DNA of 64,000 nucleotides, taken from NCBI GenBank assembly GCA_001940825.1, contig MSGT01000071.1, positions 36,101 to 100,100 of the forward strand, given 5' to 3'. The stretch's first letter is position 1, and each line of letters opens with the position of its first letter. This document shows positions 3,060 to 48,969 of the stretch, piece by piece. The DNA is from Sphaerochaeta sp. Phil3. GTDB lineage: Bacteria > Spirochaetota > Spirochaetia > Sphaerochaetales > Sphaerochaetaceae. Under the pieces are notes generated by a model, which saw nothing but the letters and a program-made list of their open reading frames with translations, made no database searches and was not told the DNA's origin. The position numbers were made by a program, and so were the translations under genes.

Positions 3060-3192
3060 GCTCCTTAAGGTGAGAATCCTTGACAAGCATGTGGGGCTTA
3101 TATCTATCTATAAACAAGGAGACGGACTAATTTTTATTAGTACAAGGAGTCGGTTATAGTAGTATTAGTGCAGACTTTAAAATCATGCAGTA
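3060..3192 (+). ncRNA. repeated RNA motif, copy 2
   Basis: A hairpin AAGG-(TGAGAAT)-CCTT precedes TTGACAAGCATGTGGGGCTT (3080-3099). Then TTAGTGCAGACTTTAAAATC (3165-3184) lies about 75 nt downstream. The second box is nearly identical to that in copy 3. The hairpin loop matches copy 1 while the stem differs in sequence, as expected for a conserved RNA fold. The ends are approximate. Confidence 0.5.
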
Positions 3193-5404: not shown

Positions 5405-5810
5405 AGTAATAAACATCTTGTTTTTTTAAGTTAAAGTATACTCAGTCTGTGAAGATAGAGTGTACGTCCTCAGAAGATGACAAACCTGTGGGGCGTAAGT
5501 AAATGCATATCGTATATTATTCCCTTGAATACGGCAATAGTGGGTAATATCCGAGATACTCGTATTTGTGTTTATAATCGTGCAGACGTTAAAATCAGGT
5601 ACTCCAATAAGATTAGTTTGACAGCTATTTCTGATTATGAGTTAAAACTATTTGAGAGTCAGTAGAAGTGTGTCTTTTTTATTAACAAATGATACTTTCA
5701 TAGGACAACAATGTATAGTATTTTTTAGTTGGTACTAACTTAAAACAAAATCCAGAGTACCCTGGTCGTCGTCAAAAAACAATTATTAACAATTTAAAAA
5801 TATTAGTATT
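5405..5810 (+). ncRNA. ORF-poor stretch with repeated RNA motif copy 3
   Basis: There is no credible gene; a 62-aa frame at 5477-5665 is in the motif and looks accidental. The stretch holds copy 3 of the repeated RNA motif: TGACAAACCTGTGGGGCGTA at 5478-5497 and CGTGCAGACGTTAAAATCA at about 5579-5597. It is followed by a T-run (GTGTCTTTTTTATTAAC, about 5670-5686) that could terminate the RNA. A leader TTATTAAC then precedes the gene at 5811. Confidence 0.5.
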
Positions 5811-7013: not shown

Positions 7014-7061
7014 TTTAAATTGTTAGTAAAATGGTGGATTTCAGTCAACCAAGAACCATTT

Positions 7062-7190
7062 ATGGCCAAACCCCTAAAGGGAGATCTCATAGGAGACACA
7101 AGTACCTACGGACTATACAACGGTCAACCAATTAACATTGGTCAGAAGAAGGATATGGGTCATCTACGAATAAGAAATACGAATAAGTAG
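7062..7190 (+). CDS. hypothetical micro-protein (42 aa)
   Basis: 42 aa, MAKPLKGDLIGDTSTYGLYN..., basic C-terminus, stop TAG at 7188-7190. It is preferred over an overlapping 34-aa frame from 7031 because of its more natural composition. A T-run at 7198-7208 follows and may end the transcript. Low support. Confidence 0.4.
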   Translation: MAKPLKGDLIGDTSTYGLYNGQPINIGQKKDMGHLRIRNTNK

Positions 7191-7221
7191 AATGGTTCTT
7201 TTTTTTTAAACTCTAAATGCA

Positions 7222-7998: not shown

Positions 7999-8006
7999 TA
8001 TCTTTG
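7999..8006 (+). promoter_or_regulatory. Bacteroidetes-type -7 promoter element, first
   Basis: TATCTTTG is a perfect TAnnTTTG box. It lies in a 14-nt sequence AGTATCTTTGTATC that is repeated exactly 112 nt downstream. No clear TTTG -33 box is seen. It sits upstream of a gene-free, structured stretch leading to the tmRNA, so it likely drives RNA genes using host RNA polymerase. Confidence 0.6.
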
Positions 8007-8480
8007 TATCCAAACAGGTTAGTGTTTATGGGGAAATTTGGGTGGAAACCGTTAGGTTTGCCAGGAGAAATTGGACGCCACAAAGACCTGAATTAACAGG
8101 TCTCATTTAGTATCTTTGTATCAGTAATGAGGAACTACTGTGTACTACTGATCATATGTCTGGGATCGCGACAATAAGATTGTCCCGCATTAGTAATAAT
8201 GCTGAACTGCCTTAGTCGAGATATCAAATCAGACTGAATAGGTGTATCTTGTATCATTTACGTTGCTAAGGATCGAACCACGTAAATCCTATTCATATAT
8301 TATCAAGATCAGTATAAGAGAACTAACCATTCTCAAGACCATAGGGTATATAGCTTTGGTCGGCTATATACCCACAAATTTTTTGATATTGATATTTCCT
8401 ATGTTAATATGGGAAAATCATATGTATGCACCTGATTGGTTCATAAAATGGATAGATAAAATGCATTAAAGAAATTGACT
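8007..8480 (+). ncRNA. gene-free leader of the tmRNA locus, with structured RNA
   Basis: No credible protein gene is present; a 75-aa frame at 8242-8469 overlaps RNA structure and is not believed. Visible structures include a 7-bp hairpin AGACCTG/CAGGTCT just before the second promoter, a GCGACAAT/ATTGT-type hairpin at about 8167-8191, and a perfect 11-bp hairpin GGGTATATAGC/GCTATATACCC (8344-8373). It may contain a short independent RNA from the first promoter plus the 5' extension of the permuted tmRNA precursor, whose start I cannot fix. Confidence 0.5.
8111..8118 (+). promoter_or_regulatory. Bacteroidetes-type -7 promoter element, second
   Basis: This is the second exact copy of AGTATCTTTGTATC (box TATCTTTG). 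It would start transcription near 8125 and read through the acceptor half, intron, spacer and coding half of the permuted tmRNA, and perhaps the tRNA-like gene at 9526. Confidence 0.6.
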
Positions 8481-8520
8481 GTTAGGTCTATTAAATCGTC
8501 GTTTGGACACGGGTTCGACT

Positions 8521-9274
8521 CAGAGGGTCGCTTATATAGAAATGTATATGACAAAATTGGGTGAATTCAAGGAAAGCTAAATAAAAAGCTCAAAATCAGC
8601 TTTTTACATGCCAATCTTGAGCTAAGCTTAGAGTACACTCTAAGAAAGTGCAGAGACTACTGGAGAACTATAGTGTTCTTAATTACCAGCTAGAGCGCCC
8701 AACATCTTAAGCAGCATTACTGCAAGATGAAGAAATAGTCCGTAGATAAACAAGTTCTTTTAACTTGTCCTCTGAAAGGAGGTTTCTGTGTGATAGTCGA
8801 TGACAATTAGGACAAAGAGTTATTAAATTATTCATCTCATTTTTACCACCTTTACATACTGGCAAAATGTGATGAATATCTCTTGGACCTAAATTCCATC
8901 CACAATTCGCACAGGGTAATTCTAATAATATATTTTGTAACTTTCTTGTGCCATTTTGCTCTGTGACAATTAGTTGTCTATAATGTTTACTTTTACATTT
9001 ATCAGAACAATATTTAGCTTTTGGATTAACTGATAAAAATTCATTGTTACATACAATACATTTACAGTGTTTCAAAGGTTTATTTGCATTACGACTTTTT
9101 GCAGCACAAGATAAACTACAAAACTTAGCGTTACCACGATTTAACTCTCTTGTATCTGCCATAAAAATTTTATGACAGAATTCACATTCTTTTTCTATTA
9201 ACATAATTAATAAATATTTATGTTATAAAAACGTATGTGGAGATAGAAAGTTCTAATTGTTGTAAAATATTTAG
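8521..9274 (+). mobile_element. group I intron in the tmRNA T loop
   Basis: The 5' splice site follows U8520. P1 is CGACT (8516-8520) paired with GGTCG (8526-8530), with the diagnostic U-G pair at the splice site. The intron ends at G9274, and the exons rejoin to a perfect T arm. Core elements are visible: AATTGGGTGAATTCAAGG (P/J region, about 8555-8572), AATCTTGAGCTAAGC (Q, about 8613), GTGCAGAGACTAC (R, 8648-8660) and AGAAATAGTCC (S, about 8731-8741), forming P7. It is 754 nt long because of an antisense HNH gene in its 3' part. It should self-splice and home to intronless tmRNA genes. Confidence 0.85.
8707..9204 (-). CDS. HNH homing endonuclease, antisense within the intron
   Basis: 165 aa. 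The N-terminal region has two treble-clef zinc fingers of the type CxxC...CSxxC (residues about 7-32 and 48-70). The C-terminal HNH domain has CANCGW, DIHHILPVCKGGKNEMNNL and LCPNCHRLSHR (about 98-143), giving the His-Asn-His site and a zinc pair. It is encoded on the strand opposite to the intron, so it needs its own minus-strand promoter. Its 3' end overlaps the P7/P8 strand of the intron core (8707-8745). It uses the standard code (no in-frame TAG). Confidence 0.9.
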   Translation of the reverse strand: MLIEKECEFCHKIFMADTRELNRGNAKFCSLSCAAKSRNANKPLKHCKCIVCNNEFLSVNPKAKYCSDKCKSKHYRQLIVTEQNGTRKLQNILLELPCANCGWNLGPRDIHHILPVCKGGKNEMNNLITLCPNCHRLSHRNLLSEDKLKELVYLRTISSSCSNAA

Positions 9275-9287
9275 CCCGTATGCTCCA

Positions 9288-9380
9288 CTATGTTCGTTCG
9301 ACTCGAACCAGTGGCAGCTCCTGTGATGGGTAACTCTTCCTCATGTGTGAAATAACACAAATGGCAACTGAGCTGCAATC
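9288..9380 (+). ncRNA. structured spacer between the two tmRNA halves
   Basis: This is the intervening transcribed segment removed in permuted tmRNAs. It folds into a T-arm mimic, GTTCG-TTCGACT-CGAAC (9292-9308), lengthened by CCACT/AGTGG reaching into the acceptor end (9285-9314). A 7-bp helix GCAGCTC/GAGCTGC (9314-9320 with 9370-9376) brings its ends together. This geometry would place the mature 3' and 5' ends next to one another for processing. Processing enzymes are inferred, not shown. Confidence 0.6.
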
Positions 9381-9525
9381 GGGGCATTATGGTTTTGACA
9401 GCGACATAGAGGAAATAGAATAGGTCAATAAGCAGATAACTGGCAATACAAGTTATGTAATGGATTATACTCGCTTAGCAGCGTGAGATAATCTAAACGG
9501 CTAAGCTAATGTCGTAAAAAGCTGG

Positions 9526-9648
9526 AGTAGAATAACTATAATTGGTTAGAGCGGGGGCGGCGGGAAAGGAGCTGATACCCAATCCCCTCAGGCACCACCA
9601 AGTTCAAGGCAGGAGTGCTATATGTAGGTTCGAGTCCTACTTCTACTA
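9526..9648 (+). tRNA. tRNA-like gene with a greatly expanded anticodon region
   Basis: A perfect 7-bp acceptor (AGTAGAA/TTCTACT) and perfect T arm (GTAGG-TTCGAGT-CCTAC) are visible, and the D arm contains AATTGGTTAGAG. Between D and T arms there are about 70 nt instead of about 22. AGCG (9550-9553) can pair with TGCT (about 9616-9619) as a 4-bp anticodon stem, enclosing a GC-rich insert with its own GGGG/CCCC helix. The anticodon cannot be read. It could be an intron-bearing tRNA, a degenerate tRNA, or a tRNA-like processing signal at the end of the tmRNA transcript. Confidence 0.5.
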
Positions 9649-9687
9649 CAAGAAAATTAGGTTTAATCAATAAATTGTTAATTTGAA

Positions 9688-9987
9688 ATGGGATTAATTA
9701 ATTTTATCAGAGAGAAACTTCCTGAACCCTTAGATAAGGTAAGTAAGGAATTACGAATGAAAGAGAAATTGATACAGCGTATCAACTCTGTTGTGCCACA
9801 GTGTTACAAGAACAGGTATCACTATAAAGAAGGTATTTCCAAAGTAAGAAACATCTTCTTCTTCTGGGAAGAAAGAGGTACAGAAATCTTACATCTTATT
9901 GATGTAGATGGAATGACTTCTGAAGATGAGAGAAAATTTCGTGAACTTGAAATAAAAGCAAGAAACTACAAAGAGCAATGCGTATAA
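9688..9987 (+). CDS. hypothetical protein (99 aa)
   Basis: 99 aa, basic N-terminal half and acidic helical C-terminal half (DVDGMTSEDERKFRELEIKA). It is the first gene of a four-gene overlapping operon (10-nt overlap with the next). No motif is recognised. Confidence 0.7.
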   Translation: MGLINFIREKLPEPLDKVSKELRMKEKLIQRINSVVPQCYKNRYHYKEGISKVRNIFFFWEERGTEILHLIDVDGMTSEDERKFRELEIKARNYKEQCV

Positions 9988-10166
9988 GATATTTTGCCTG
10001 GTTTGACTCTAAGGCTGAACGTACTGAATTTATCAGTATACTTAATCAGTCTCGTTCAGAGTCTGAAGCGATTAGTAAACTCCTTGATAAATATCCAGAC
10101 TTATCTATGTCTGCAATATCAGGAGTAGTAAGTAACTTTGTAAAAGAAATCAATAAAAAGTCATGA
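9978..10166 (+). CDS. hypothetical small protein (62 aa)
   Basis: 62 aa (MRIRYFAWFDSKAERTEFIS...) with a predicted helix-turn-helix-like C-terminus (LLDKYPDLSMSAISGVVSNFVKEI). It might be a small DNA-binding regulator, but this is a weak resemblance. Overlaps on both sides (10 and 4 nt). Confidence 0.65.
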   Translation: MRIRYFAWFDSKAERTEFISILNQSRSESEAISKLLDKYPDLSMSAISGVVSNFVKEINKKS

Positions 10167-10618
10167 AATTAAATCATCCTGGAATCTATCGTGTTATTGG
10201 AGAGCAATTTGAATTGTTAGCTAATATAGTTGGAGAAGTTCCTTGTCTTAGGATTACTTCTGCACTGTTAATAAATGACCTTGTTCAAAAAGGAAAGTTT
10301 ACAGTACTCTCTGAAGAATCTATTGAGATACAAACTGTATGTCAAAAACCTGATTCTTTTTTGTTTTTAGAGTATGAATACTCAGAAATATGTACTCTAC
10401 CGCCTTATAGACAATCTATTCGCGGTACGAAGATGCCAAATATTAGTAATGAACAACTAAAGGCATTCACTAACAGATATCTTGAGGATATTAAAATTCC
10501 TGGTAGAGGAATTGAAGCTACAAAAGCATATATTCTCAGTGTAACTGATTTCAATTTAGCACAGATAAACGTGCTGATGCTGAAAATAATTAATAGCACT
10601 CGCTATGGTCGTAAATAG
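10163..10618 (+). CDS. hypothetical protein (151 aa)
   Basis: 151 aa. The N-terminal 55 residues look beta-rich (GIYRVIGEQFELLANIVGEVP), and the C-terminal half is helical. It ends at TAG (10616-10618) inside the next gene's start region (14-nt overlap), one of the places where TAG must terminate. Function unknown. Confidence 0.7.
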   Translation: MKLNHPGIYRVIGEQFELLANIVGEVPCLRITSALLINDLVQKGKFTVLSEESIEIQTVCQKPDSFLFLEYEYSEICTLPPYRQSIRGTKMPNISNEQLKAFTNRYLEDIKIPGRGIEATKAYILSVTDFNLAQINVLMLKIINSTRYGRK

Positions 10619-11000
10619 TCTCACTGCATATCCATACTTAAGAGGATGTCCTATAAGATATTCTCAAGTAAATTGGAGACCATCTTGGTATGTATTCTTA
10701 AGAATACAGAATCGAGAAATTAAAAATACAGAATTCCACGAATTCTTTGATAAACAGAACTTAGCTAGGATAATATCATGGTTTGACATGAACATAATAC
10801 AACAGATTGGCATAGCTTCTAAGATTACTTTAAAAGTTAGAATTAGAATTGTCTGTGGTATGGTGAATAAATTACCAGTCGAAGTTCTTACTCGCGACTT
10901 AAAGATTGAATTTATGGAATGTATTTGGGACGCTTTTGATAAACTATATGACGAGTGGAATGAATGGCATTGCAGGTATATACTTGGATTACCATTCTAA
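10605..11000 (+). CDS. hypothetical protein (131 aa)
   Basis: 131 aa, basic and aromatic (SQVNWRPSWYVFLRIQNREIKN...WDAFDKLYDEWNEWHCRYI). The ATG overlaps the preceding gene by 14 nt. It directly precedes the sigma factor gene, so the two may be co-transcribed. No domain is recognised. Confidence 0.7.
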   Translation: MVVNSLTAYPYLRGCPIRYSQVNWRPSWYVFLRIQNREIKNTEFHEFFDKQNLARIISWFDMNIIQQIGIASKITLKVRIRIVCGMVNKLPVEVLTRDLKIEFMECIWDAFDKLYDEWNEWHCRYILGLPF

Positions 11001-11048
11001 GGGTATAGGGTCTTGATTGACCCTATACTCACTAAAAAGCCCGTGATT

Positions 11049-11609
11049 ATGACAGATGAAGAAAGACAACAGCTTTTCGATCTGATCAAACAGGCGAAAG
11101 AAGGTAAACAAATTGCCTTCACAAAGCTTTATGAGAAGTATAATCGAATTATATATAATACGATATATCGTATTGTTAATAATAAAGATGCTGCAGATGA
11201 TTTATTATCTGTTACTTTTATTAAAGCTTTTTCAAAGCTAGAGAGTTATGTTAACAATATTTCATTTGAAATGTGGTTAAAAACTATAGCTATAAATAGT
11301 AGTATTGATTATATTAGACGTACTAAGAAAGAGAATGCAAATTATTGGCTAGACGATAGTACTAGCACTGTTCAATTGAGAAGTTCGGCCGACTACTCGC
11401 CTGAAGATAATTATATCTTCAATGAAACAGATGAGAGACTTTCAGATGCCTTTAGCAGACTCCGGTATAAGTATCGTCATATACTTGAACTACGAACAGT
11501 TCAGAATTTGTCTTACAAACAAATATCTGAAGAACTTGGCCTCACAGAGAGCCAGGTAAAATCTCAGCTTAACAAAGCTCGGGAAAAGTTAAAACAATTA
11601 TTAAACTAA
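11049..11609 (+). CDS. ECF-type RNA polymerase sigma factor
   Basis: 186 aa from the ATG at 11049; a longer frame from TTG 11013 is less likely. Region 2 is clear (residues about 20-88: FTKLYEKYNRIIYNTIYRIV, DAADDLLSVTFIKAFSKL, WLKTIAINSSIDYIRR). Region 4 is clear (about 132-184: LELRTVQNLSYKQISEELGL, TESQVKSQLNKAREKLK). A linker replaces region 3, as in ECF sigmas. It would recruit Bacteroidales RNA polymerase to phage promoters, probably for middle or RNA-gene transcription. No anti-sigma factor is identified; the membrane protein that follows is a possible partner only by position. Confidence 0.9.
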   Translation: MTDEERQQLFDLIKQAKEGKQIAFTKLYEKYNRIIYNTIYRIVNNKDAADDLLSVTFIKAFSKLESYVNNISFEMWLKTIAINSSIDYIRRTKKENANYWLDDSTSTVQLRSSADYSPEDNYIFNETDERLSDAFSRLRYKYRHILELRTVQNLSYKQISEELGLTESQVKSQLNKAREKLKQLLN

Positions 11610-30080: not shown

Positions 30081-33000
30081 TTATTTAGATTGTAATAATG
30101 TCATCTCATTCGCAATATCTTGATAGCGATATAGTTGTCTCGCTATAGGTAACAAATCGAAGAATTGCTTTTCAAGCTTATAATGATCTTCCCATTCTCC
30201 ACGTACATATTTCTCAGTAGGATCTTTAATAATCTGACCTATAAAATTAGTAAAGCTTTTAATAAGTGAAGAGGAAGGAATAGGAGATTGAACAATCTTA
30301 AGAGCATCTGCAGGATTAAAGAAAAACGCGATATCAGTCTTAAGACGATAAGTTTGATAAGCCATATTAGACCAAAATATCTTCATATCTTCGTCGTCAT
30401 CGTCATCTTTCAGTTTAGTAAGTACTGCAGTAAGTATAATAGCTGCTGTTAAGAATGCAGCATCAATAGCAAACCTTTTTACATTATACTTTTCAAATTC
30501 GGTCATTGTACTCCAATCTGCACTTGATGCCATTTCTAATGCTCTTGCTTCATCTTTGTATTTCATAAAGAAAGAACCTACCTTGTTCTTGATGAATCTA
30601 GCACCGGTACGATAATAACCTTCTTGCCAATCATCAATGACATTATCATAGTATTCTGTAGAATATCTTCTTCTAATACCAGGTATAATCCATTTACGGA
30701 ACATTAAAGCTAAACGTGTAAGACCCCATCTCTATAAAGCTACTTTAGTGTGAGGAGCATAATTACCATGCATTTGCATAAGTAAAGCTCTTACTCTAGC
30801 TGAGAACTAATTTTGTTCATCTGGACTAAAGTTTGCTACTACTCCATCCTTATCAAATTTAAGCTTACCGTCTTCTACATAAAAATAATCGTATACGCTT
30901 CCTATTACATTCCCGTTTCTGTCCTTAGCTTCTTTATTTATCAACGAAGCTATCAGAAAACGAGATTGAGCTTCATGCTCACCTAAATTATTAGTAGCAT
31001 ATAAGGCAGAAGTATTAAACAATCTTGTAAATCTAAGCTTATTTTGGAAATCACCCTCAGTATAATCTGTAAATACTCCAAAATGTTCATTCAATAAGTT
31101 AACTTTACTTGTAGCCTTAGTAGCTCCTATATCACCAAGTATATTGGGAAGGTCTTTAGCATATTCACCTGTAGCTTTAGTATAGGCTTTAGCAGATACA
31201 TATCTATTTGCAAAGCTTTCTATAGCTTGTTGAGTCTCTGCCATAAGGACATTGTTAACCATACTTATATAGTTAACACCCATTATAGATAATGATGTAT
31301 ACTTAGATAGTAAATCTACTAATTTGGCAGCATCTACTCCCATTATTATACCTAGATCAGCATCTGATTTTTGATATATTACTTGCTAGAACCAATCATT
31401 TAACTAATCTGCTAAATTAGAAGTATCTTTTACTACATCAGAAGCATTAATAGAAGAATTAGGATTTTCATCAAGGAATTTCTTCTCCAAGTAGTTCTTA
31501 ATAGCTCTACCTTTACTATCAGTTATTTTAGTTCTACGACTATTAACAACATGTCTAGTGAATTCTAATTGAGCCATTACCTTAGTGGTATTATAATAGT
31601 TTAAAGCCGATGCAAACCATTTATTGTATATACTAGGTATATCATAAGATTGATCTTGTTCTTCTAATCTAGCTGTATAGAATACTGGAACAAAGTCTAT
31701 AGGTCTATCTAATTCATCAGATAGTGCAAAAGAACCAAGATGAGTATCATCCTCATTTCTAATTACTTGTCTCTTTGCATCTCTTAGAGCAGCCTTAGCT
31801 ATATTCTGCCCAGATTTGACCCTTTCCATCATGTCTAGTGATACTCCAGGTAACCTACCATTTAGTTTATATCTTTTAGCTACACCTGCATCTCCTTCTT
31901 CTGATAAGGAATATATAAAATCATAAAATCGTATTCTAATATCATCAGGATTGGTCTTTCTAAGTTTTGATAAATTGTCCCACTTAGTATTAGGATACAG
32001 TTTAGGATCTATTTTTCTATACTGCCAAATAAGTTTAGACATTTCTTGCTGAACTAATTCTGCAGCTTGTCTGCTTATCTTACTTTCTGAAGCTAAAGTA
32101 TATACACCCTTCCTTCTATTTTTGGATTTTTCATTTTCCACAAGTATCTTATGCTCTTCTTCAGTGATATCATCTTCCTATAACATTTTATCAAATAAAT
32201 CAAGCTTAGCTCGATTAAGTCTTTCTTTATCTACTATAGGAGCATTTTTATTCAACCACGCTCTTAAAGCTTCACTTCTCTGTTCTGGAAGTATATACTT
32301 GGGATCCTTGTCTATTTCTTCCTTAGCCTCTAAATAAGCATCATCAAAAGATGAAGGCATCTATTTAATCAATCTTGGCCCACTAGAAGTGTATTCAATC
32401 ATAAAATCATATACTTTCTTAGGATCTGATGCTATTGTTACACCTAATGCTTTATGTAATTCTTTAGTAAGATCAGCTAATTGTCTGTACTTATCTACAT
32501 ATTGTACTCTAGTCTATGATACTACTTCATCATAAGCTTTTGCCATAGCAGATATTATAGGATCCTATGATTGAAATATAGTATCAGTATACCTATAAAA
32601 AGCATTAGTATCGGAATCAGCTATTCTTGATTGTTGTTCAATAAAGTTATATGTCTCAGTTTGAATCTTTTCAGCATTATCATTGATATATTTATCAATA
32701 TAAGCTTGCATATCATCTTTATTGATTTTTCTTCCTTTATTATCTTTTTTATATTGTATCTCTGCTTCTCTTTTATACCTACCTCTAATTATACCTACAA
32801 ACGGTTGTAACCATTGGATCCAAAGAGGTTTACCTTTAACATCATAAGCCTTTTCTAATACATCTTTATAAGTAATAGCAGTATCTAAAGCTTTCAGTAC
32901 TTCTGCTTGTTCATCTTTAGATAAGAAATCTTTGTAGTCATATAGATAGTTTCTAAGATCTCTAAGAGGTTCAAATGATTCTGCTAAATCTTTCCATATT

Positions 33001-35492
33001 TCTAATGTAGTTAGATTCCATACAGCTTGACCCTCTTCCTTTTCTCTGTCTAACAAAGTATTATAACGCTATATTTCCTTTTCTAAGCTACTTAGAGCGG
33101 TATTAATATAACCAACCATTATCTCTTGTTCCGTAGCATCTTGAAACTCTTTTACTTTATTCTTAAGTATTCTAGATTCAATGTCTCTACCCTTAGAAGA
33201 TAACAATATAGTCTTATTAGATAGTGTTTTTAATATCTTGTTTACTATCTCTGATGTCTATTTTAACTGTTGTTCATTTAATTTACTTAATTGATTGTTT
33301 TCTCCAAGTAAACCTAATGATTTCTTAGCCGCTAAATCTACATCACTACGTATTGGCATTTTATATACACCAGTTAATTCATTTTGATTTTCTTCATTTA
33401 CTAATACATTAGAGAAATATACATTAGTAACATTACCTTCCTTATCTACATCTACTTCGATAGGAATCACACCTCTTTCATCTATATGTATCCCCAATTG
33501 TTCTTGCATGTACTGATACATTGCTAACTAGAACATATGTCTGTCCCTATCTGGTCTATTTGAATATTTAGTTTTGTTATAGTAAGTAAAACCATATTTC
33601 TTCTTGTCACCATAATTGCGCATTTTGGTCTTGAAATCAAGAAGTTTTATTTTACCTCTCTTATCTCTTACTAATAAGTCTAATGTACCAGCTACTTTTG
33701 CATCATCATTTGATATTACCTACTCTGATGCTATTACTTGACCGTTTCTCTTTACTATATTAGCTATGTTAGTAAGTTGTTTTATTACTCTAGGACTAAA
33801 TTGTGTATCTCCTATTGGTTCACCTTTCATCAACTTACTTAGTACTTCATGTATAGCTGTACCTACTCTAGCGGTGAAGTCACCATATATAAGTTGTTGC
33901 TAAGTCATAGTATCTATATCTTCAGCAAAACCAGCTAACTTCTTAACATCAGATACAGATTTGTATACTTCTCCCGTTTCAGTATTAGTATAAGTATGAG
34001 TATCTGCATCAAAAGCGATATGTTTACTTTGTTGATCAAATATATTTTTAATCGTAACGGGATTGTTAGTCTATTTAATAGGTTTAGCTAAATGCAGGTT
34101 TGCTGTACTTAGTTCCTTATTTATATCTTCTAAGTTGTAATTTAAATCTTGATAATTAGTAAGCATATTTACCATAAAATTATGAGCCTCAACAAAAGCA
34201 TTATCTGAATTAGTAATACCAAATGCTTTCATTAACCAGTCTATAATCTTATCTAACATACTTTGTTTTTTAGAAGCAGGTATGTTCATTAATTCTTTAG
34301 CAAATTTTGCATTAGACCATAATTCAGCTAAGAATTCATATTCATCTTTCATACCATAGTAGTCAGAACCAATATACTATTTTACATTGTCCATTATAGA
34401 CTTAAGTTCACCTTTTAATTCAGGACTATTGTTAAGTACACTTACTGTGGCTGCATGTAATATTTCATGGAATATTGTATTGTCTGCTTTAGATAATTTT
34501 CCATTATGTTCGTATGCTGCATTTTCTGATATATAAACTATGCCATTATCAGTATCATACCAAGCATGAGATGGATTATCTTCACTATATGGTATTAATA
34601 CTACTTTCCTAGCTTTTACATTTACTGGTATATTAGCTTTTACTTTATTGATAAAAGGAACAAGTGCAGGACTACTTTTAGCTAATCTAGTGAGCATTAC
34701 TCCAATAGATGCTTCGTCCTTACCGTTGAATAGTCTATTGCGTAAATCTGGATCAGAAGGAACAGTTGTATCAGTATATTCCGCTCTATATATATTATTG
34801 TCTTCTCTAGAGAAAGAACCTTGATTGTCTATTGATTTGATTTGATTAGGACGATGAACAACATAGATGTCTTGATTTAATTCCTAATTATCGTCGATTC
34901 CATGAAATATAGCAGCATCAGCCTCTTTAGAAGATCTATTTATGGTACTTACAAAACCTTCTCCTGTTGTTCTCAATTCATCTTTAGTTCCTGTTTTCTC
35001 TATTACATTTTTAGCACTAAGATAAACAGGATAGCTATATTTTCTATCAAGAACTGTACCAGATTTTGGATATCTGGTTCTAGTAAAAAAGATAGCCTCT
35101 TTTGTTCCTCCTTTACTACGACTAAAATAATTATTGAATTCAGTAGAGAATTCCGTAATGGAATCATTACTATGGTGATATACTAATAATGGTTCACTAT
35201 TTTTATCTGTTATTTTAGAAGAATCCTCAGAGCTATTTAACCAATCCCCAAACCAGCTTTTAAAGCTCTTAGAATATACCTAAGCCTTAGCCTTTATAGC
35301 ACTATTACGATCTCCATTATAATAGTTTAAAAGGTCTGAAAATAGCTTAGACTCAGCCCCATTAGGGGCCTTGTCTATAGCATTACCATTGTTTTGGTTC
35401 CATATATCATATGCCGCTACTTCGCCTACGGCATTAACAAGTTCTGTGAACTATTGTTTTACTGTCTTATCATTTAAATTAGGGCATATCAT
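30081..35492 (-). CDS. giant virion protein with ART-like and HExxH segments (1,803 aa)
   Basis: 1,803 aa with 18 in-frame TAGs, stop TAA at 30081. Residues about 75-235 resemble the ART-PolyVal (ADP-ribosyltransferase-like) domain of phage polyvalent proteins: FKSWFGDW, EPLLVYHHS, EAIFFTRT and PNQIKSI. A zinc-metallopeptidase motif HEILH is at 342-346. The rest is helical, with a hydrophobic helix near 1660-1690 followed by DDDDDEDM. The start ATG at 35490-35492 lies 1 nt beyond the stop of the RNA polymerase giant. It is likely packaged and delivered with the genome. Catalysis is inferred from motif resemblance. Confidence 0.85.
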
Positions 35493-35493
35493 A

Positions 35494-38400
35494 TTATTTT
35501 CCTTTACAGTTTAACATTGCTTCATCACTGAAATCATTAGCTATATCGTTCTTCAAATCTGCAAGTATTTCATCTGAAGTCTCTATAGTTTTTAAAGCTT
35601 CAATTGCATTAGGATCTGATGTTATAGATGCATATTGGATGTCATACATCAATTGATCGTGTAGTATTTCTTCCATTTCTCTTAATGTGGTTCCATCTTC
35701 ACCTTTAACATCATAATTTATCCACTTGGCTAATCTATCAACCTCTAATAAATTCTGTAATAGTTTCTATCCTACATCCTTGTTGGATGGATCGGGAATC
35801 AAATTAGCTATAGTATAATAATAAGCTTGATTTACAGTGGAGAATTGCACATCCTAATATGTAAATCGTCTAATAGCATCTTTACTTAATATAGCTTCGG
35901 CCTGTCCTTGTGACATATCATTAAATAAGTCTGCAAAAAATGTAGATATCTATTTCTCTTCAGAAGGAGTTACAGTAACTTCTACATTCTTAACTTCAGC
36001 TTCTCCATCTTCATCATAGGTTCGGTTAGAACCAGTTTCATCTATTATCTCTTTTGCAGGTATAAACTTAACTTGGTTTTTACTAAACTTCTTATTAAAC
36101 TCTACACTTAAGTCAGTATAGTCTTTAACTTGATTAGTAGGAAGTTCTGTAGTATTAGAAGCTTCTTTTATAGAGAATCCCTTATATGTATAACCTGTTT
36201 TAGGTATTAACGCATATACTAATTGAGTGTCTCCGTTAGTGTTAATACTCTTACCTACAAACTTATATAGTAGAGTATTATTAACATTAGATCTATCTTT
36301 TACTTTAACATATGGTTTATAACTTTCATCCAGAGACTACATAAAATTAGTTCTATCTTCTTGTAAACGAAGATATATTGCAGGTCCGTGTTTAACATTA
36401 GGATCAGACATTGACGCGTCTATAAAATTATTTGATACATCGGGAATTAATCTATCATTATTCCATAGACTTCTTAATGTATTATCTATAATAGTAGCAT
36501 AATCTAAGTAAGATTCATTATCATTAAGACTCCTTACTGTCTATTTCATATATTCTTCATAGGTCTGACCATTCAACTCAAAACCTTTCGCTAATACTTC
36601 ATAAGGTACTAAATCAAAGAAGTTATAGATACCATTAGAATGTCCACCACTGCTATAGAATGAATATAGAATTAAATCTTTTGCAATATCTCTTACTTCT
36701 TTACTCGGATGTTCTAATAAGTCTCTCCAAGCATATGTATACATATTCTTAGATTGAGTATCACGCTGTTTTGTAGTAGATACTTCGAAGATCTTAGGAG
36801 CATTTGGATCTGAATTTATACCAGGTTCAAGCAATCTTAATAATGCATTATCTTTTAAATTCTAATACTTTTGATTTGTATATATTGCATTTCTTAGATT
36901 AGATACTCTATCTACTACAGAATTATTACCATAGAATAATGATTTAACAGTCTTGTTATTAGCTTTCATATATTCATTAAAGAAGCCAGCCTCTATATTG
37001 GTTTTTAATTCTCTTGATATAGCATTAACTATTCTTTCATCCTTAGCATAGTAAGTAACTGTCTATCTTTGTATCTATTCTATCATATTTACAAAGTTAG
37101 GAGCGAACTCTATAATCTCATTACTTAACATATTGAACATTAAGTTGATACTATTTTCTAACTTCTTACCTAAGAAAGTTTTATTGAAAATATCAAACGG
37201 ATTAGTAAAGTTAGTATCTGATAATGCCTGTTCTATGGTATGTAGATGTAATATCATTTCGTTAGCATTGTTACCAAACTTAGCGGTATCAATTTGAGAC
37301 GCTTTAATCAAATTAGATAAAGATTTTCCATATTCATCTATTTGATTGAAATATTCAAGTATTTGTAACTGATTATTATACCAGTTATAATCTCTTTGTT
37401 TTTCTGGTATCGCTAATTGACTTTCTAACCATTCTTTATTCATTATTTTATCTGTAAAGAAAGTATCACCATACAAAGGAAGGTCTTCTCTTAGTACCTG
37501 TTCATCTGAAGTAACTATACTATTGTGTTTATTTATAGCATCTTCAAGTAGTTTTTCATATTTTTCCTTAGTATTCTTAAGCCAAGCTTTTTGATATATT
37601 TCAATTGGATTAGAACCTATTTTAGCACTCTTTATACGCATAGCTTCAGAGGCTAACTCTCTAAGTATAGGCTGTGGCAAGAAGTAAAATACTGAATCAC
37701 CCAGACCTGATGATACCATAAATGCAGTAGCACTATACGTATATTTATTAACATTAAGACGAGTAATATAAGGGTCTTTAGCAGCATCTACGTGAGCATT
37801 AATCAATGCAGAAGTCCAGTCCAATATAGATATACCATTTCTATCATACTTAAGATCTAAAGTATTGATACCAAGTAGTTGACATACATTAGGTTTACCA
37901 TCATTAGTAACAGACATAGTATTTAAATTCAAGCCAGCTATTTGAGCAAATGTTCTGAATGTATTAATCAACGCCATAGGACCAATACCTGCATCAGCAC
38001 CAGTATTGTTATTCTTAATTTCTAATTGATATGGAGGGAATAATGCTTCAAGAGAACTGATATTCTTCTTATCAGCAAGATATTTATCTACTTTACCTAC
38101 GATATCTTTAATAGGTTGAGTAGTAACATCAAGAGGAGTAGTGGCATCAAGGAAATGGTTATCAGAAGTAAGAGTAGTATTAAATATATCTAATAATCTG
38201 TTTTCTATTTGTTCTCTACTATTTACAGTCCATTTATCTTTACCCGTATTATTTGATATAAAGTCTTCTAATTTTATTATATCAGTCTTTTTATTGAATA
38301 ATCCTCTTATTCTACTTACTTTTTCAGTATCAGATATAGTTACATTATCAAGTATATCTAATGCATCGTTGTAGTTAATAAATGAATTATAACCTTTAAT

Positions 38401-41400
38401 ATAATTTAATAAGAATTCTTTATCTTCTGCCATCATAGTATCATTGTTCATTAATACTTTCTTGTACAGAGTATTAAGAACTTTAGGTACATCCTTTTCT
38501 GCTTCTTTATATTTATCAGTTTGATAAGCTGCATATTTATAATTATATACTGCAGTTAGGAATTCTTCTTCATTAGAGTAGTCATCACTATCAATAAATT
38601 GTATTTTCTCTAACTTTCCGTCTATATCTCTATAGTTGTACCTAGCCATGTACATTTTATCAATATCGAAGTCAGAACCAGTAAGTGTAGTAATTTCAGA
38701 AGGCATTATAATAACATCACCTGAGCTTTCTCTTAATACATCTACAATCTGTAATGGCAGTGTAGAGTTCATACCCTGTGTAGGAATACGATAACCTATT
38801 GCAAACAAATCAGCATTAGCTAGTATGTATTCTTTGGACTTTTCAAAATCTCCTTGTATTTCAGCTGGTAATACAGATTTGAATAGATTAATAGATACAA
38901 TACATTCCATTCTGCCATTATCAGGTCTTTTGAACTTAAGCTCGTCATTAAATATTATACCTTCTCCTTTTACTTTTGTATTGAGAGGTTTATCGAATGT
39001 GGTAGTCTTAAATCCAAAGTTAGACATCTGAATGAAAGCATTACCTGGAGTATTGATATCAATAGTAGCCTTCTTAATCATTGCAGTTATCCTACTATGT
39101 ATCCAATTAAGAGATGGCAACACTGATAATTCTATATAATAATCTGTAGTATCGTCAGACTTAATAACAGTTTGTAAAGCATCAATCAAATTATATGGCA
39201 TATTACTGTTGATGGCATCATCCCTAAGCATTTTAACGAACTTAGTTTTGTCTACATATAACTTACCACCTTGTTCTTTAATACCTATTTGATTAAACAG
39301 CTTCTATTTACCTATATCAGACAGTCTATCTATAGCTTGAACATATTCATCAATTAGTTTCTGTCCTTTAACTGTCTTACCTTGGAAATCATAATCACCT
39401 TCCTTCTCAACATTAGACATACAGATCTTAATAGGTTGTGTTGCAAAGGTAACTCTCTCCACATTATGAGGATCGGTCACTAACTGTTTACCTATGTATT
39501 TGAACTCCTGTTCATATACAGCAGACTCATTCAGATCTTGTAATTTCCAGTCTCCGTCATACATCTTCATACGTTGCATATTACCAGACTTAGTAGCACT
39601 GTTCATTTTAATCATGTCTACATCGTTGTCTTTCATGTAATCATACATTTGTTGTAAGTCACGATTTACAGCAGTACGTCTGAATATAGTAGCTAGAGAC
39701 ATCTTGTCGTAGATAGGAATTCTATTACCATCGGAATTTATGTAACCAAAATGTACATATTTCAACGGTTGCATAACTATATTATGTAATTCAATTTCCT
39801 ACTCCAAAGACAATTGTTCATCAGATTCTAACAAGTCAAATGCTCTCTATTTATCTTCATTCCAATCTCCGTTCATTATAGATAATTTACGGAACATAGT
39901 GGGAGAAATCCAAACCTGAGCATCTGTTGGGTCTACATCATTATAACCAGATAACCTATTATCAGCATCTTTCTATGCTTTTTCGTATATTTCTTTATCA
40001 GTTAGACCAACAAAGTTCTATTTATTTTCATCTCTGAATCTGAAGTATAACTTAGTAAGAATACCAGGAGCTTCTTCTGTACCTACATACTTATCATACA
40101 TGGCATCATGCATTACTTTAGATACCAATTTGTTAGTATTTAAAGATATAGTTCTGTATGTCTAATCATCTTGAGGTATATTCATTATCTGTCTAGTAGA
40201 AGTAAGAGCAGAGTAACGTTTTACACGGTCGTCTAAGTTTTTATAGTACGCAAGGTCTCCAGATACTAATTTTTCAAACTCTAAAGTAGATATGGCAGAA
40301 TTAACGGCATAATCTGCAATAGCGCTAGCTATCATCTCTGATGTAGTCTTACCATTTTGTGGCTGTACTAAATCTGAATCTAGTAATATGTTTCCTCTGA
40401 TTATATCACTAGCTATAGACTCTCCATCATAATTAATATTTTGAGAATTGGGTTCTATAATTCTGTTATTAATAAATTGTTGAATAGTATCATTTATTCT
40501 CCAATTTAATGAATTCTTAACATAATTATATAACTTCTTATTATTTGGATTCTTGAAGTACATTGTATATACTTTATCAAGACCGTATTTATCTACTTCG
40601 CTTTGTAATTTTACAAAGTATCTAAATTTATATCCATTACCATTCTCAAATACTATCTTATCACCTTTAGTATTATAGTGATAATTTTCTACAAGATATT
40701 TAAAACTATCAGCTTTACCTTGTTCTATGGCCTCTCTGTTTATTCTAAGTATCTATTGTCTTTGTTCAGCTGCACTTAGATTATTCCATTCCGCTAAAGA
40801 TAAACCAACATCACTTAAGAATTTATCCCTTTGTTCGTACGCTTTCTGTATTACTTCATACTCATTAATAGCATATTTCATAAATACAGTAATAGTATCA
40901 TCGTCTAATTGCAACTTCTTAGATTTATCCTTATTTACATTTACTGACTGACGTTTTAAACCTTCAATAAAGTAATATGTACGCTTATTAGCTAGAGTAG
41001 GTAAAGGTAACTTATTATTTAATGTAGCATTAAATTTAAGCAAAATGTCTTCTACAGGGGCAATATCCAGGTATCCTCTACCAGTATCTGTTTCATTTTT
41101 AGATATAACTGATAATTGTGTTGATACTCTCAGAGCATCTCTCACATCCTTGCTGCTCTTAATTTGAGACAACCATACTGAACTATCACAATACTTGCAA
41201 GAAGACAATTCATTGATGTATGCTTCATCTTTTAACCAATCTTCAAACATTGATGTAATAGTATTGTGTTCTGAATAAGCATACACATTGTTACCATTAG
41301 GACCTATTACACTATCATCTTCTGATGTAGGATTAGCTTTAATATATTGTTCTGCTAAGAATTTTACAGACTTCTCATTACCAAGTATATTGAGTATTTT

Positions 41401-44400
41401 ATCTGAATCTACTTTACCATTAGCAGCATTCATAATAGGACCTTCATTGGAGAACAGGTTTTGTATACCATATTTACTCTCGGCTGTACCTGTTCTAGGC
41501 ATGTCCAAAATAAAATTACGCAAGGCTACTTTCTTATCTACATCAACAAATTCTGGATCTGCTATTATAGTATATATTGCAGGACTGTCTAAGGTAATAT
41601 TAAATTTGGAGAATATTCTTATTATCTCATTAACTGTATCATCAAATTCAAACTTACCTTTAATTACTTTATTCTTTAGTTTATTCCAATCGCTGATTGC
41701 TTGCTTAAGTTCATCCTTTCTACTTGATGGATTAGACATACCAAAAGCTACAGACCATTGTCTATTGATAGTTCTTGAACGCTTATTGATATCTGCATCA
41801 CCAAATGTCATTTTTACACCAGTTATCCTACCTCTTCTTTGTGTCTATTCAAAATATGCATTCTAAAATCTATTTCTGTGTTTCTTAAATGTAACAAAGA
41901 ATCTATTCTTAAATTGTTGATCAGAGTTTTCTAATCTATTCAACAACTCACTATACATATTTATCTTATATTCATCTCCAAGTTGTTCGGTATCTCTGGC
42001 TGCATCCTTAAGTCTTTGAATCATTTCCTCATAAGATTTAGCACTATGTAATCTACTAAAAGTATTATACCAAGCTATATCTGCATTAGTAAATTGATTC
42101 ATAAATGTAGTAGTACTAGGTAATTTACTACTTCTAAGAGTTAAGAATAACAATCTAACATCAGCTTGTGCATTCTCCTTAGCAGAAAATTCGTATGCAG
42201 ATTTTATTTCATCATTTACTATGGTGTTCATATCTTCCTTATATGAATCTTCCATTTCTGCTTTCTTTCTTCTAAGTCCATAGCCTTCAAACTTAATATC
42301 TATAAGAGGTCTGAATACATTATTGAAATTATTCAAAATCTCTGTATATATATTTGTAGCCTGACGAGCCATGATTTTAGCTTTGTCACTAGCCTAATCA
42401 TTTTCAATTACAGCCTGATAAGCGTCTTTACATTTCTGTAAATAATCAATAGTAGGTTGGAAATCTATAGGTTTATTAAGGCTCTACAATCTTTGTATAT
42501 TGTTATTAAACAAAGTAGTAGCTGCCAATGTATTGATTACCTCTTCTAATATATTGCTATCGTATATAGCTTCTAAAGTAACACCATTGATAGTCAAAGG
42601 TACTCTAGCTTGTTTGCCATAGTTAGCATCAAAATTACTAACTGATATAGGATTTTGTTTTCTAAACCTATACTCCCCATTTCTAATACTAGCAAATAAA
42701 CTATTTATATCTTCAAATTTAGGCTTCTTTGTAAATAAAGCTCTAAAGAAGTTAGCTATGTTTTTGAAGAATTGTTTTACTCTACCTGTTACACTTCTGT
42801 CAAAATCATTAGCTAATACGTATTCTCTAAATCTTTCTGCTAAATACTCTTCTACTTCTTTATTTGAATTATTTATCAGATTATATTCTTTTCTAGCCTG
42901 TCTGTAAAGTTCTTCTCTTTCCTCTGGTGATAAGTAAAGTAACGATACTCTATGAAATGCTTCGTGATATGGAGCACCTTGCTTAGCTCCTTGATACAAT
43001 GTCAATCCATCCTTAGACATTATAGCCCAAGCTAATACAGGATTGCCATGAGTACCTATAGTACTTATCAATTTGTCAGTAAGTTGTACATCGTTGTTTA
43101 CTAAGTTACCAACCATATTTCGGTACCCTGCTACCTCTTTAGATATATCAGAACGTTCATAAGCAGTATCTAATTCATCTAAATTAACTTCCATAGTAGG
43201 ACCAGAAGGATTGTCAAACTGAGCAAATATATCTGGCATACCCATCTGTTTTGCTAAATCATTCAGTTCCTATGCATCCTGTGCAGTAACAGTATTAGAA
43301 GCAGCCTGCTCGAAATTACTAGGTGCAGGCGTATCTGGCATCTTGGCGGTTTCTTTTACTGCGGATGATTTAGCTTGTTTAGGTTGGTCTTTTACTATAG
43401 TATCAGCAATTTTTGTAAGATATGCTTTTACATTCGTACCTTGTCCTGGAACTGTATCTTCAAGAGTTTCGTATAATTCATCTGCTGATTCAAATACTTC
43501 CTATAGTTTAGGATCATTCTTATACAGTACTCTTGGATTATTCTGTAATTGAGTTAAGTAATCAGATATAGAAGCTGCATCAAATCCAGTCAAAGAAGAA
43601 AGATAATTATACATCTTAGTATATCTCTTACCTTCTGCTGTATCACTGTCAAATGGATTCTTAGGATTAGTTACTTTCTTTGTCTTAGTAGTGGTCTTCT
43701 TTGCGATTTTCTTAGCAGATCTACTAGGATAATTAACACTGATACTAGCTAAAGCACTCTAACTATATATCTTTGATATATTGTCTTCTTCGTTAGCATT
43801 ACTAGCTATTTCATTATATGAGTCTATTACAGCTTTTCTAAGAGTCTTTAAAGCTTGTAAATCACTAGATGTATCTAATATTCTACCATTCAATTTACCA
43901 TCCTGTATTTTAAATGTATGTTTAGGATAAAAGTCCTACATCAATTCAGGATCTATAGTATAAGTAACAGTAGTACCATCAGGCGCAGAAGCTAATGATG
44001 CAGCTAAACCCTCTCTGTTCCATTTAGATTTGCCAGAATTTTTATCTACCTTATTAGTAATAGTTATTGAGGATCCTTCAACATTGGGGGTTTCTTCTTC
44101 CTACTGTTCTGTCTACTTAGTTTCCTATTGAGCAGCATTCAACGGAGTAGGAGTGTCATCAGAAGTAACATCTAAGGATGGTTCTAAATATAGAAGGGAT
44201 TGTCTATATAAATTAGCGTCTTCTCCTGGATCAAGATTAGTTCTAAATACACCTTGATTAATCAATCTTGTGAGATATGGAGTATTTCTGTCTGATTCTA
44301 AAGTAAAATCTCCAGATTTAATAGTATAACCGAATTCATTATTAGAATTAGCTGATAATAGATTGTGATCTATAGCATAGTTTTTATTCTTGATCATCCA

Positions 44401-47400: not shown

Positions 47401-48969
47401 TACAGCTTCGTTGGGAGCTATAAACTGGTCATATAATGATTCTACGCTATTCTTCACAAATCCTTGAATAGCTTCTTCACTACCTTCTTCCCATGCTGTA
47501 CCTAATACTGGTACTCTGGTAAATTTCTCTACTTGGTCAAATATCTTTCCTATGATACTATTTGATACAGCCTTATCAGATAATTTAGTTAAGTCTCCTC
47601 CTACTGAATTGATAACAGTTTTAGCGGCATTCTGAGCTCCAGACCCACCTACTAACCATTTATTAAGCACATTAGCTCCATATTTTTGCTCTACTAAAGT
47701 ATTTAGAGCACCTGTAATGAATCCAATCGTAGCAGCATCTTCTAATGGTAACCCCATTTGTCTTGCATATTGATATGCCTCACCATAATTGAGAATTAGT
47801 CCAGCGCTAACCATAGGTATTAATTCTGGATTCTTTACGAATACATCATTTATAGTCTTACCTATAACGCCAAGACTTTCATTAGCAATACCTTCTGCAC
47901 TTAATACAGTATTAAGTTTATTAGCACTATCTCTTAAACTATTCAAGTTAGTAGCTTTACCTACTTTATCAAGTAATCTAGCACTGCCTTTTGCCATACC
48001 AGATACTCCAGCCATTACAGATTTAGTCAGTCCACCAAACGCTGCATACTCAGCTAATGAAGATACACCTTGCCCAAGACCTGCTGTAAAAGCATAGGGA
48101 TTATCGAATAAAGATTCTTCTTCCCTCATACTTGTCTTACCTATTCTACTGTTATCTACTAATGCTTTACTTTCATCAGCCAGTTGGTTCAACCAACCAT
48201 AGTCTGACTTAAAACCATTGCCAGTAATACCATTACCAGTAGCTTGAAGTAAGTCACCTGTACCAGCAGCAAATTGTAGTACATCAGGTACTATGTTAGC
48301 TATACCTCTAGCTATACTTCTGATACCTGTCTTTAATAAACCATCCTGATACTTTTTAGGACCATATATGTTAGCTAAAGCAACACCTGCTGCTTCCATT
48401 TTCTACATAGAAGCCTGATCTGCCAATACTTGTTTATAAACATAAGTATTTAGATCAAGGTCATATTTAACAACTAATCTTGTTACTAAGTTGCCATTAT
48501 CATCAAATTCAGGCTTATTTTCCTTAGATTTTATATCACTAAGTATATTAGCTACTTTACCGTCTACTATCTCACTATACGTATACTTAGATGTGGGCTT
48601 ACTAATATCAATATAGTCCTTTAAAGGACGTTCCTTATCTGATAACCAACCTAAAGTATTATCTACCTTTATTCTATCATAAGTAGCTTTATCATAGGTA
48701 GCAGCTAATACAGAATTGCCAAATAAATCTGTATTCAATTCTTCTACACTACCTTTACCACTACCCAATTCATCTGCTCTTTCAAAACCTATTTCAGGAT
48801 TAAGGAGATTATTGAATGCGATAGCATCCATCTCTTCTGAATTATAAGGTTCCACAGTGAATTCGTTTATCACTGATGGAACCTTTCTAAATGATTGTAC
48901 GCCAGCATAAAACTTTCTGAGACCTCTGTCTACGTTCTGCTGAACTACTGTATCAAATTTTGGTATCAT
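35494..48969 (-). CDS. giant virion RNA polymerase polyprotein-like protein (4,491 aa)
   Basis: 4,491 aa, one frame with 37 TAGs, stop TAA at 35494. N-terminal about 190-640: membrane-prone and Gly/Ala helices (IYGPKKYQDGLLKTGIRSIA). About 650-1100: Gln/Lys/Asn-rich helices. HEAFH metallopeptidase-like motif at 2002-2006. LTGSDFDIDKMYM at about 3430-3442, with DFDID (3433-3437) being the metal-binding catalytic motif of crAss/YonO-type single-chain RNA polymerases. The ejected polymerase would transcribe early genes. The 718 residues from 39231 to 37075 around the active site contain no TAG. Confidence 0.9.

Follow-up and report, generated by a model that had tools for sequence, protein, structure and literature searches.

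A crAss-like phage tmRNA gene in circularly permuted order, split in its T loop by a group I intron and adjoined by a tRNA-like element, with a predicted two-piece product

How a working transfer-messenger RNA might be obtained from a phage gene whose halves stand in swapped order and whose T loop is interrupted is the question raised by this locus. The window, that is the whole 64,000-base stretch analysed here, makes up the right-hand end of contig C71, which is 100,100 bases long and comes from a metagenome bin, and cr4_1 (Suoliviridae) is the closest annotated relative at the locus. A sequence-only reading had claimed a phage-encoded, circularly permuted tmRNA gene, and the two halves, their order, the 7/7 acceptor pairing and the P2 helix are in the sequence as claimed; its gene model was nevertheless incomplete, having missed a group I intron, the HNH gene and a downstream tRNA-like element. 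From the gene order, the intron, the covariation between the pieces, an invariant G3.U70 pair, the intact tag frame and the position of the tRNA-like element, all of which were observed, the intron-split gene is likely (probability roughly 0.85) to yield a two-piece, alanine-charged tmRNA that would rescue ribosomes together with host SmpB.

The gene occupies 8475-9525 of the plus strand (Table 1), the acceptor and T-arm half lying 5' of the coding half and a 7-bp acceptor stem spanning the junction. In the acceptor piece, whose 5' end is placed near 8442 by ARAGORN, exon 1 passes from the P2 3' strand (8475-8502) into the start of the T arm (ACGGG-TTCGACT), and exon 2 supplies the T stem 3' strand CCCGT, the acceptor 3' strand ATGCTCC and the discriminator A, with CCA not encoded. 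The coding piece is made up of GGGGCAT, a D-loop-like region, the P2 5' strand (9401-9428), the tag frame, P5 and the pseudoknot, the last of which was read from the sequence, its S1 being recovered in a two-piece fold and three of its S2 pairs in the consensus. The tag frame that had been proposed to start at 9442 and end in TGA is present, encoding GNTSYVMDYTRLAA, and ARAGORN agrees once the gene is spliced.

Table 1. Coordinates of the features at the permuted tmRNA locus and upstream of it (positions of the window)
Feature	Position	Strand	Details
RAGATH-7, three hatchets, RAGATH-9 (set of sites)	2364-2580, 2798-2956, 3061-3188, 5466-5600, 7041-7202		
tmRNA acceptor piece, exon 1	8475-8520	+	P2 3' strand, T stem 5' strand, T loop
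754-nt group I intron, inserted behind T-loop nucleotide 7	8521-9274	+	RF00028; empty site (L003)
HNH homing-type endonuclease ORF, 165 aa, antisense in intron	8707-9204	-	PF01844
tmRNA acceptor piece, exon 2	9275-9287	+	CCCGT, ATGCTCC, discriminator A
Intervening segment separating the mature 3' and 5' ends (excision predicted)	9288-9380	+	
tmRNA coding piece	9381-9525	+	acceptor 5' strand GGGGCAT through terminal pseudoknot
Tag reading frame GNTSYVMDYTRLAA and TGA	9442-9486	+	
3'-terminal H-type pseudoknot	9497-9525	+	S1 9497-9501/9511-9515; S2 AGCT 9504-9507/9520-9523
tRNA-like element adjoining pseudoknot	9526-9648	+	acceptor AGTAGAA/TTCTACT, 7/7; T arm 9624-9640

Analysis of positions 8000-9800 with the Rfam tmRNA models gave no match at E ≤ 10, because the group I intron interrupts the gene; the model search suggested by the sequence-only reading, which had named the lack of any covariance-model match as refuting its claim, thus came out negative in the window itself and positive in intron-free permuted relatives. 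These match RF04321 (tmRNA_permuted) in 8/8 cases at E ≤ 5.4e-4, three of them above the cut-off, and six further permuted loci do so at E ≤ 0.002, four of them above it, giving for both sets together 14/14 at E ≤ 0.002 and 7/14 above the cut-off. Matches of the relatives to the beta model stayed below the cut-off and none to the alpha or cyano models was listed, overlapping matches within the same clan being omitted. ARAGORN likewise found no tmRNA in the unspliced window stretch; after in-silico excision of 8521-9274 it reports "tmRNA, Permuted" with the tag GNTSYVMDYTRLAA, and none of 300 mononucleotide shuffles is called. Intron removal produced a tmRNA call in six of the seven split permuted genes, the window included; cr6 still received no call after in-silico splicing.

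The acceptor pairing of GGGGCAT (9381-9387) with ATGCTCC (9280-9286), 7/7 with one G.U, is weak alone, as GGGGCAT has 171 seven-of-seven partners in the window when both strands are searched and G.U is allowed. An alignment was made of 26 phage tmRNAs from 28 tried (cr10 and cr50 were dropped, their acceptor strand having been missed by the script), in which 766 of 792 cells pair and 17 of the 31 consensus pairs change on both sides. Two-sided changes are seen in 10/20 inter-piece pairs, 5/5 T-stem pairs and 2/3 pseudoknot pairs, and those between the pieces tie the upstream and downstream halves into one RNA. Inter-piece pairing reaches 487/511 cells (0.953) against a mean of 0.836 when halves are re-paired between phages, and P2 alone reaches 0.947 against 0.850; neither value is attained in any of 2000 re-pairings, a result that is inflated by the relatedness of the sequences and is not a p-value. 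The G3.U70 pair, the alanine identity pair read by AlaRS, is invariant in the alignment (26/26).

In a single-sequence fold of the two pieces P2 forms as four blocks, and the acceptor stem, P5 and pseudoknot S1 are recovered as well, but the T-arm bases pair otherwise; the energy, a mere 2.4 sd below 200 mononucleotide shuffles and undercut by one or more of them, is weak evidence. A conventional order, with the 3' half downstream, was rejected, as the two seven-of-seven acceptor partners in 9388-11500 come without a T arm (3/5 and 1/5 T-stem pairs). The downstream element was also rejected as the tmRNA 3' half, its acceptor strand TTCTACT not pairing with GGGGCAT. SmpB is not encoded on the 100,100-base phage contig and is present on contig C59 of the same bin. 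C59 also has its own standard tmRNA with the tag AKKEDDFVLDEAEFALAA; the bin may represent the host or a misbinning, either being possible, and this tmRNA was dropped as a host comparison because the bin may not be the host.

The coding pieces compared end in an H-type pseudoknot, in the majority with S1 as ACGGC/GTCGT and the loop AGCT facing a downstream AGCT; the variants GCC/GGC in cr4, CTAA/TTAG in the cr118/cr1 group and AGGGC/GTCCT in IMG304 are compensating changes. An acceptor strand stands directly 3' of the pseudoknot and is followed, beyond a linker and a T arm, by its matching partner. This tail was tested in 28 sequences chosen by the 3' pseudoknot pattern (L044, cr131, cr7, the Bohxovirus and the environmental loci are excluded both here and from the covariation set), using a strict detector in which the acceptor start was free from -3 to +4. 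A tRNA or tRNA-like element was found in 25/28, starting 0-2 nt after the pseudoknot, against a background of 320/5600 shuffles and 806/10640 slid positions. The detector passed over cr118, in which the acceptor has a bulge, IMG12983, in which the T loop is odd, and JAFZDT, in which the T stem is weak. The loci's own acceptor strands form 181 bp in total over the 28, with at least 5 bp in 27, whereas swapped acceptors form 112 bp on average; none of 10000 permutations reaches 181, and this is still so with the 22 distinct acceptors. In cr131, cr7, the Bohxovirus and L044 a different sequence precedes the element, yet the element is present. Of two environmental relatives, L060 has a candidate, with an acceptor helix of 7 and the T arm 130 nt further along, that lies apart from the coding piece, and L055 has no convincing tail element.

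The distance from acceptor start to T arm is 17-34 nt in 11/25 elements, too short for both D and anticodon arms, 40-55 nt in 13 and 98 nt in the window. The window element has a D-arm-like part, its anticodon arm being replaced by a GC-rich insert, and it shows no complete cloverleaf with anticodon and no ARAGORN tRNA call; against RF00005 it scores 27 bits, just below the cut-off of 29. The GC-rich stretch that stands in place of the anticodon arm covers 9553-9623.

It is conceivable that the element is a neighbouring or decaying tRNA gene and no processing signal at all, an explanation regarded as unlikely, though not negligible. ARAGORN calls a tRNA in 7/34 tail elements, so that some of them may simply be tRNAs; those of cr10, cr50 and cr60 exceed the RF00005 cut-off, and the records annotate a tRNA-Lys at this place in cr1 and cr55, a tRNA-Leu in cr60 and a tRNA-Cys in cr7. 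Against this, the element starts within 2 nt of the pseudoknot, and decay should erase the paired acceptors and T arms that are kept in the 11 elements of 17-34 nt spacing. Comparing the window with cr4_1 speaks against a neighbouring gene as well, for the element has for the most part been exchanged (46 matches, 34 mismatches, 43 gap columns) and yet both versions pair, beside near-identical coding pieces. An acceptor stem and T arm suffice for RNase P in model substrates, and on that ground the preferred reading is that the tRNA-like element would act as an RNase P signal, cleavage at which would set the 3' end of the coding RNA. This offers a testable answer to the question of where a two-piece tmRNA might obtain the 3' end of its coding piece, and the tail elements would range in a natural series from complete tRNAs down to minimal substrates of RNase P.

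The tag frame bears on an alternative role for the RNA, in which it would be a decoy that blocks host trans-translation, and this is considered improbable. A precedent is found in phage DS6A, whose tag-less tmRNA, consisting of the tRNA-like domain only, inhibits the endogenous one according to the accessible portions of PMC11915505 and PMC4131195. A decoy needs no tag, whereas a short tag frame with a stop occurs in 29/29 distinct coding pieces, the A/V/S-A ending of these frames having been required by the script and so being a search criterion, not a result. For this count, as for that of the T arms below, rows identical in their first 120 or 150 bases were merged. The tag stops are TGA in 12, TAA in 17 and TAG in none, which fits any TAG-reassigning phage and is no proof of a link between the tmRNA and the code.

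That this phage changes the meaning of TAG was also part of the sequence-only reading, and it is upheld by the reading frames of the window. Frames of at least 150 codons amount to 30,592 bases in the standard code, 49,765 with TAG open, 37,081 with TAA open and 31,153 with TGA open. The many in-frame TAGs are concentrated in a minus-strand block at 30081-63361 (18 in 30081-35492 and 37 in 35494-48969), and the gain obtained there with TAG open indicates that the reassignment is real. The TAG-rich block presumably holds late genes, and recoding in crAss-like phages is described as mostly in late genes in the accessible part of PMC7886860. No suppressor tRNA was called within the 64-kb window. 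Clearing of ribosomes that the code switch has stalled is a possible role of the tmRNA but not a needed one, as rescue on damaged mRNAs of any kind, phage or host, would suffice. The gene makes phage-encoded ribosome rescue a concrete target in an abundant group of gut phages, in a lineage where TAG is given another meaning.

Some 770 nt separate the T-stem 5' strand (8509-8513) from ATGCTCC (9280), as the T loop is split by a group I intron. RF00028 matches 8490-8760 with 75.2 bits (curated cut-off 50), the HNH ORF matches PF01844 with 38.6 bits (cut-off 21.4), and an empty site is provided by cr52_1, in which GGGTTCAACT continues directly as CCCTTATGCTCC. Removal of 8521-9274 rebuilds the T arm ACGGG-TTCGACT-CCCGT. 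At the splice site the last exon base, U8520, faces G8526 in P1 (8516-8520 paired with 8526-8530) and the last intron base is G9274; the U at -1, the terminal G and the main loop position 7 all agree with the rules given in the accessible text of PMC11915505, as in the intron-form tmRNAs described there.

Among 28 distinct coding pieces the T arm upstream is continuous in 20, counting three with an unusual loop (L011, L017 and L022), and split in seven, namely the window, cr4, cr118, cr1, cr55, cr6 and one IMG contig; by reading, L024 (IMG12979) is one more split gene, its exon 1 lying beyond the sequence end. The intron sits at loop position 7 in four of the seven, with boundaries that rebuild the arm, and fits position 6 or 7 in cr1 and cr55. 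The cr6 intron fits position 2, but it then ends in A, an irregular boundary, and by the boundaries assigned here the intron of cr6_1 is 871 nt long.

That the intron is a non-splicing insertion and the gene a tmRNA relic is very improbable. The window does score on no tmRNA model, as a pseudogene might; against this, neither the exons nor the tag frame, P2 or the acceptor is damaged, and they covary, the intron retains a full-length group I core match with canonical splice-site bases, and four of the seven split genes have it at the same loop position, with boundaries that restore the arm. Assembly in trans of three unspliced pieces, with exons 1 and 2 held unligated by the T stem, is conceivable in principle but can hardly be credited given that a group I intron with canonical junctions is the simpler route and that in 20/28 distinct coding pieces a single unbroken T arm lies upstream.

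The window intron is identical to that of cr4_1 over 754/754 bases, whereas the 975 bases upstream align with 899 matches, 75 mismatches and 47 gap columns; an identical intron beside diverged upstream DNA fits recent homing, although the adjacent exons and intervening segment are near identical too. The intron would be a mobile passenger, and the conserved T-arm sequence the homing target of its HNH enzyme. In cr113, cr56 and MT835588 (L011, L012 and L017) the T arm is continuous but unusual, GGGGC-TATCGTAT-GCCCC, and the intervening segment is about 600 nt long, with an annotated endonuclease gene in cr113 and cr56. The unusual arm is perhaps an altered homing site.

The tmRNA gene lies upstream of a sigma-factor gene, identified in the window by Pfam matches, in the five subfamilies of Suoliviridae that were sampled: Loutivirinae (cr4, cr52, cr60, cr113, cr56, cr53), Uncouvirinae (cr118, cr125, cr114, cr115), Boorivirinae (cr1, cr55, cr10, cr50), Bearivirinae (cr6) and Oafivirinae (cr131, cr7, a Bohxovirus). 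For cr10, cr50, cr131, cr7 and the Bohxovirus, which were found via the sigma gene, this neighbourhood is a selection criterion; scanning with a single sigma-factor sequence gave one locus, and with an alignment 22. A pattern search of a genome collection gave four loci, in bins of assorted bacterial names, of which only L036 is counted. Left uncounted are cr109 (L013) and cr272 (L065, Oafivirinae), for which the stretch ends with the record and no coding piece was found by pattern, and L019, a further cr6-like coding piece, and L034 are left out of all counts.

RefSeq annotates a tmRNA in nine intron-free genomes (cr52_1, cr60_1, cr125_1, cr114_1, cr115_1, cr10_1, cr50_1, cr131_1 and cr7_1), and in the stretches examined no tmRNA feature is given for the intron-split cr4, cr55 and cr6 (RefSeq) and cr118 and cr1 (GenBank), nor for the intron-free cr113, cr56 and cr53, nor for the Bohxovirus. 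The RefSeq genes, labelled "transfer-messenger RNA, SsrA", are the same gene upstream of the sigma factor, differing from the window in being intron-free, and their annotated unit does not take in the tRNA-like element. Given these annotations, and the two-piece phage tmRNAs in the accessible text of PMC9004378, the novelty that the sequence-only reading had seen in a permuted tmRNA of a crAss-like phage does not hold.

Outside the Suoliviridae, Steigviridae cr106_1 has a standard-order tmRNA with the tag DNTYRVAA (ARAGORN), and cr128_1 (L016 2538-3854) has a candidate, unannotated there, that is of standard order by reading. Neither is permuted, unlike the window, but the cr128_1 candidate resembles it in that its T loop is interrupted by a related group I intron of 869 nt (86 bits; 153 nt at 82.6%). 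As ARAGORN makes no call on in-silico spliced cr128_1, standard order there rests on reading and on cr106_1. With permuted genes in Suoliviridae and standard ones in Steigviridae, one phage order contains both gene orders, with related introns in both.

As the halves are swapped and an intron is inserted, a working RNA would likely need both splicing and cutting. In the proposed maturation the group I intron would self-splice, rebuilding the T arm; RNase P would cut before G9381, and 3' processing with CCA addition would finish the acceptor piece after A9287, the 93-nt intervening segment being lost. A further RNase P cut 5' of the tRNA-like element, at 9526, would leave the 3' end of the coding piece just after the pseudoknot. 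Held together by acceptor stem and P2 and charged with alanine, the two pieces would then tag stalled chains with GNTSYVMDYTRLAA and terminate at TGA, which this TAG-reassigning phage would still read as a stop. A T-arm-like hairpin, GTTCG-TTCGACT-CGAAC with flanks CCACT/AGTGG, is also present at 9285-9314, in the intervening segment and overlapping the mature acceptor end; the intervening segments of cr125, cr10 and cr50 have T-arm-like hairpins too. Such hairpins are a possible processing aid.

A bolder reading of the sequences, held with slightly better than even confidence, is that of a relay of RNA enzymes, in which RNase P could open the permuted precursor only once a mobile group I ribozyme had spliced the T loop, and in which a stripped former tRNA would have become a dedicated RNase P signal. 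This former tRNA, reduced in many phages to acceptor stem and T arm, would direct the cut at the 3' end of an RNA that is not a tRNA. The intron family would have entered the T loops of both permuted (Suoliviridae) and standard (Steigviridae) tmRNAs within one phage order.

Two-piece phage tmRNAs and T-loop introns are each published; their combination was not found in the literature searched. The accessible text of PMC9004378 describes a two-piece tmRNA in phage Melnitz and, by ARAGORN, 53 two-piece forms among 133 unique phage tmRNAs, 50 of the 53 being aquatic. The 2025 tmRNA database (PMC11915505) distinguishes in its accessible text standard, intron, permuted and tag-less forms and holds 79 phage sequences; its 883 intron-form sequences have introns of less than 700 bp, and the homing endonucleases named are LAGLIDADG. 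The forms tabulated in that text include no permuted-plus-intron class, and the supplementary tables may hold such an entry or a phage one. PMC7886860 reports introns and code changes in crAss-like phages in its accessible part, and the word "tmRNA" is absent from the main texts of PMC7886860, PMC12386605 and PMC10136315. Neither a permuted tmRNA with a T-loop intron nor a tRNA-like tail of the coding piece was found described among the open-access papers that the searches listed.

As in known permuted tmRNAs (RF04321 and RF01849-RF01851; bacteria, phage Melnitz and others), the window has its acceptor half upstream, an intervening segment, a 7-bp acceptor with G3.U70 and a tag frame; it departs from them in a T loop split by a group I intron and a coding-piece pseudoknot that adjoins a tRNA-like element. 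From the intron form, which the database text sets apart from "permuted", it departs in its HNH gene and its intron length of 754 nt. Forms catalogued as separate thus coincide in one gene, which standard tools miss.

A tRNA (63 bits) lies inside the tmRNA intervening segment of cr114_1 (L014 3070-3141), and a single like case, from an archaeal bin, appears in the accessible text of PMC11915505. The 6.2 kb upstream of the window tmRNA contain RAGATH-7, RAGATH-9 and hatchet ribozymes above the Rfam cut-offs (Table 1), and many relatives have hatchets, RAGATH-9 and RAGATH-20/22 close by, the region being dense in structured RNAs. A weak RAGATH-20/22-like match in the window at 8039-8167 (29.7 and 21.7 bits) is far below cut-off, and at the corresponding place upstream of the tmRNA cr52 and cr60 have a RAGATH-20 above it.
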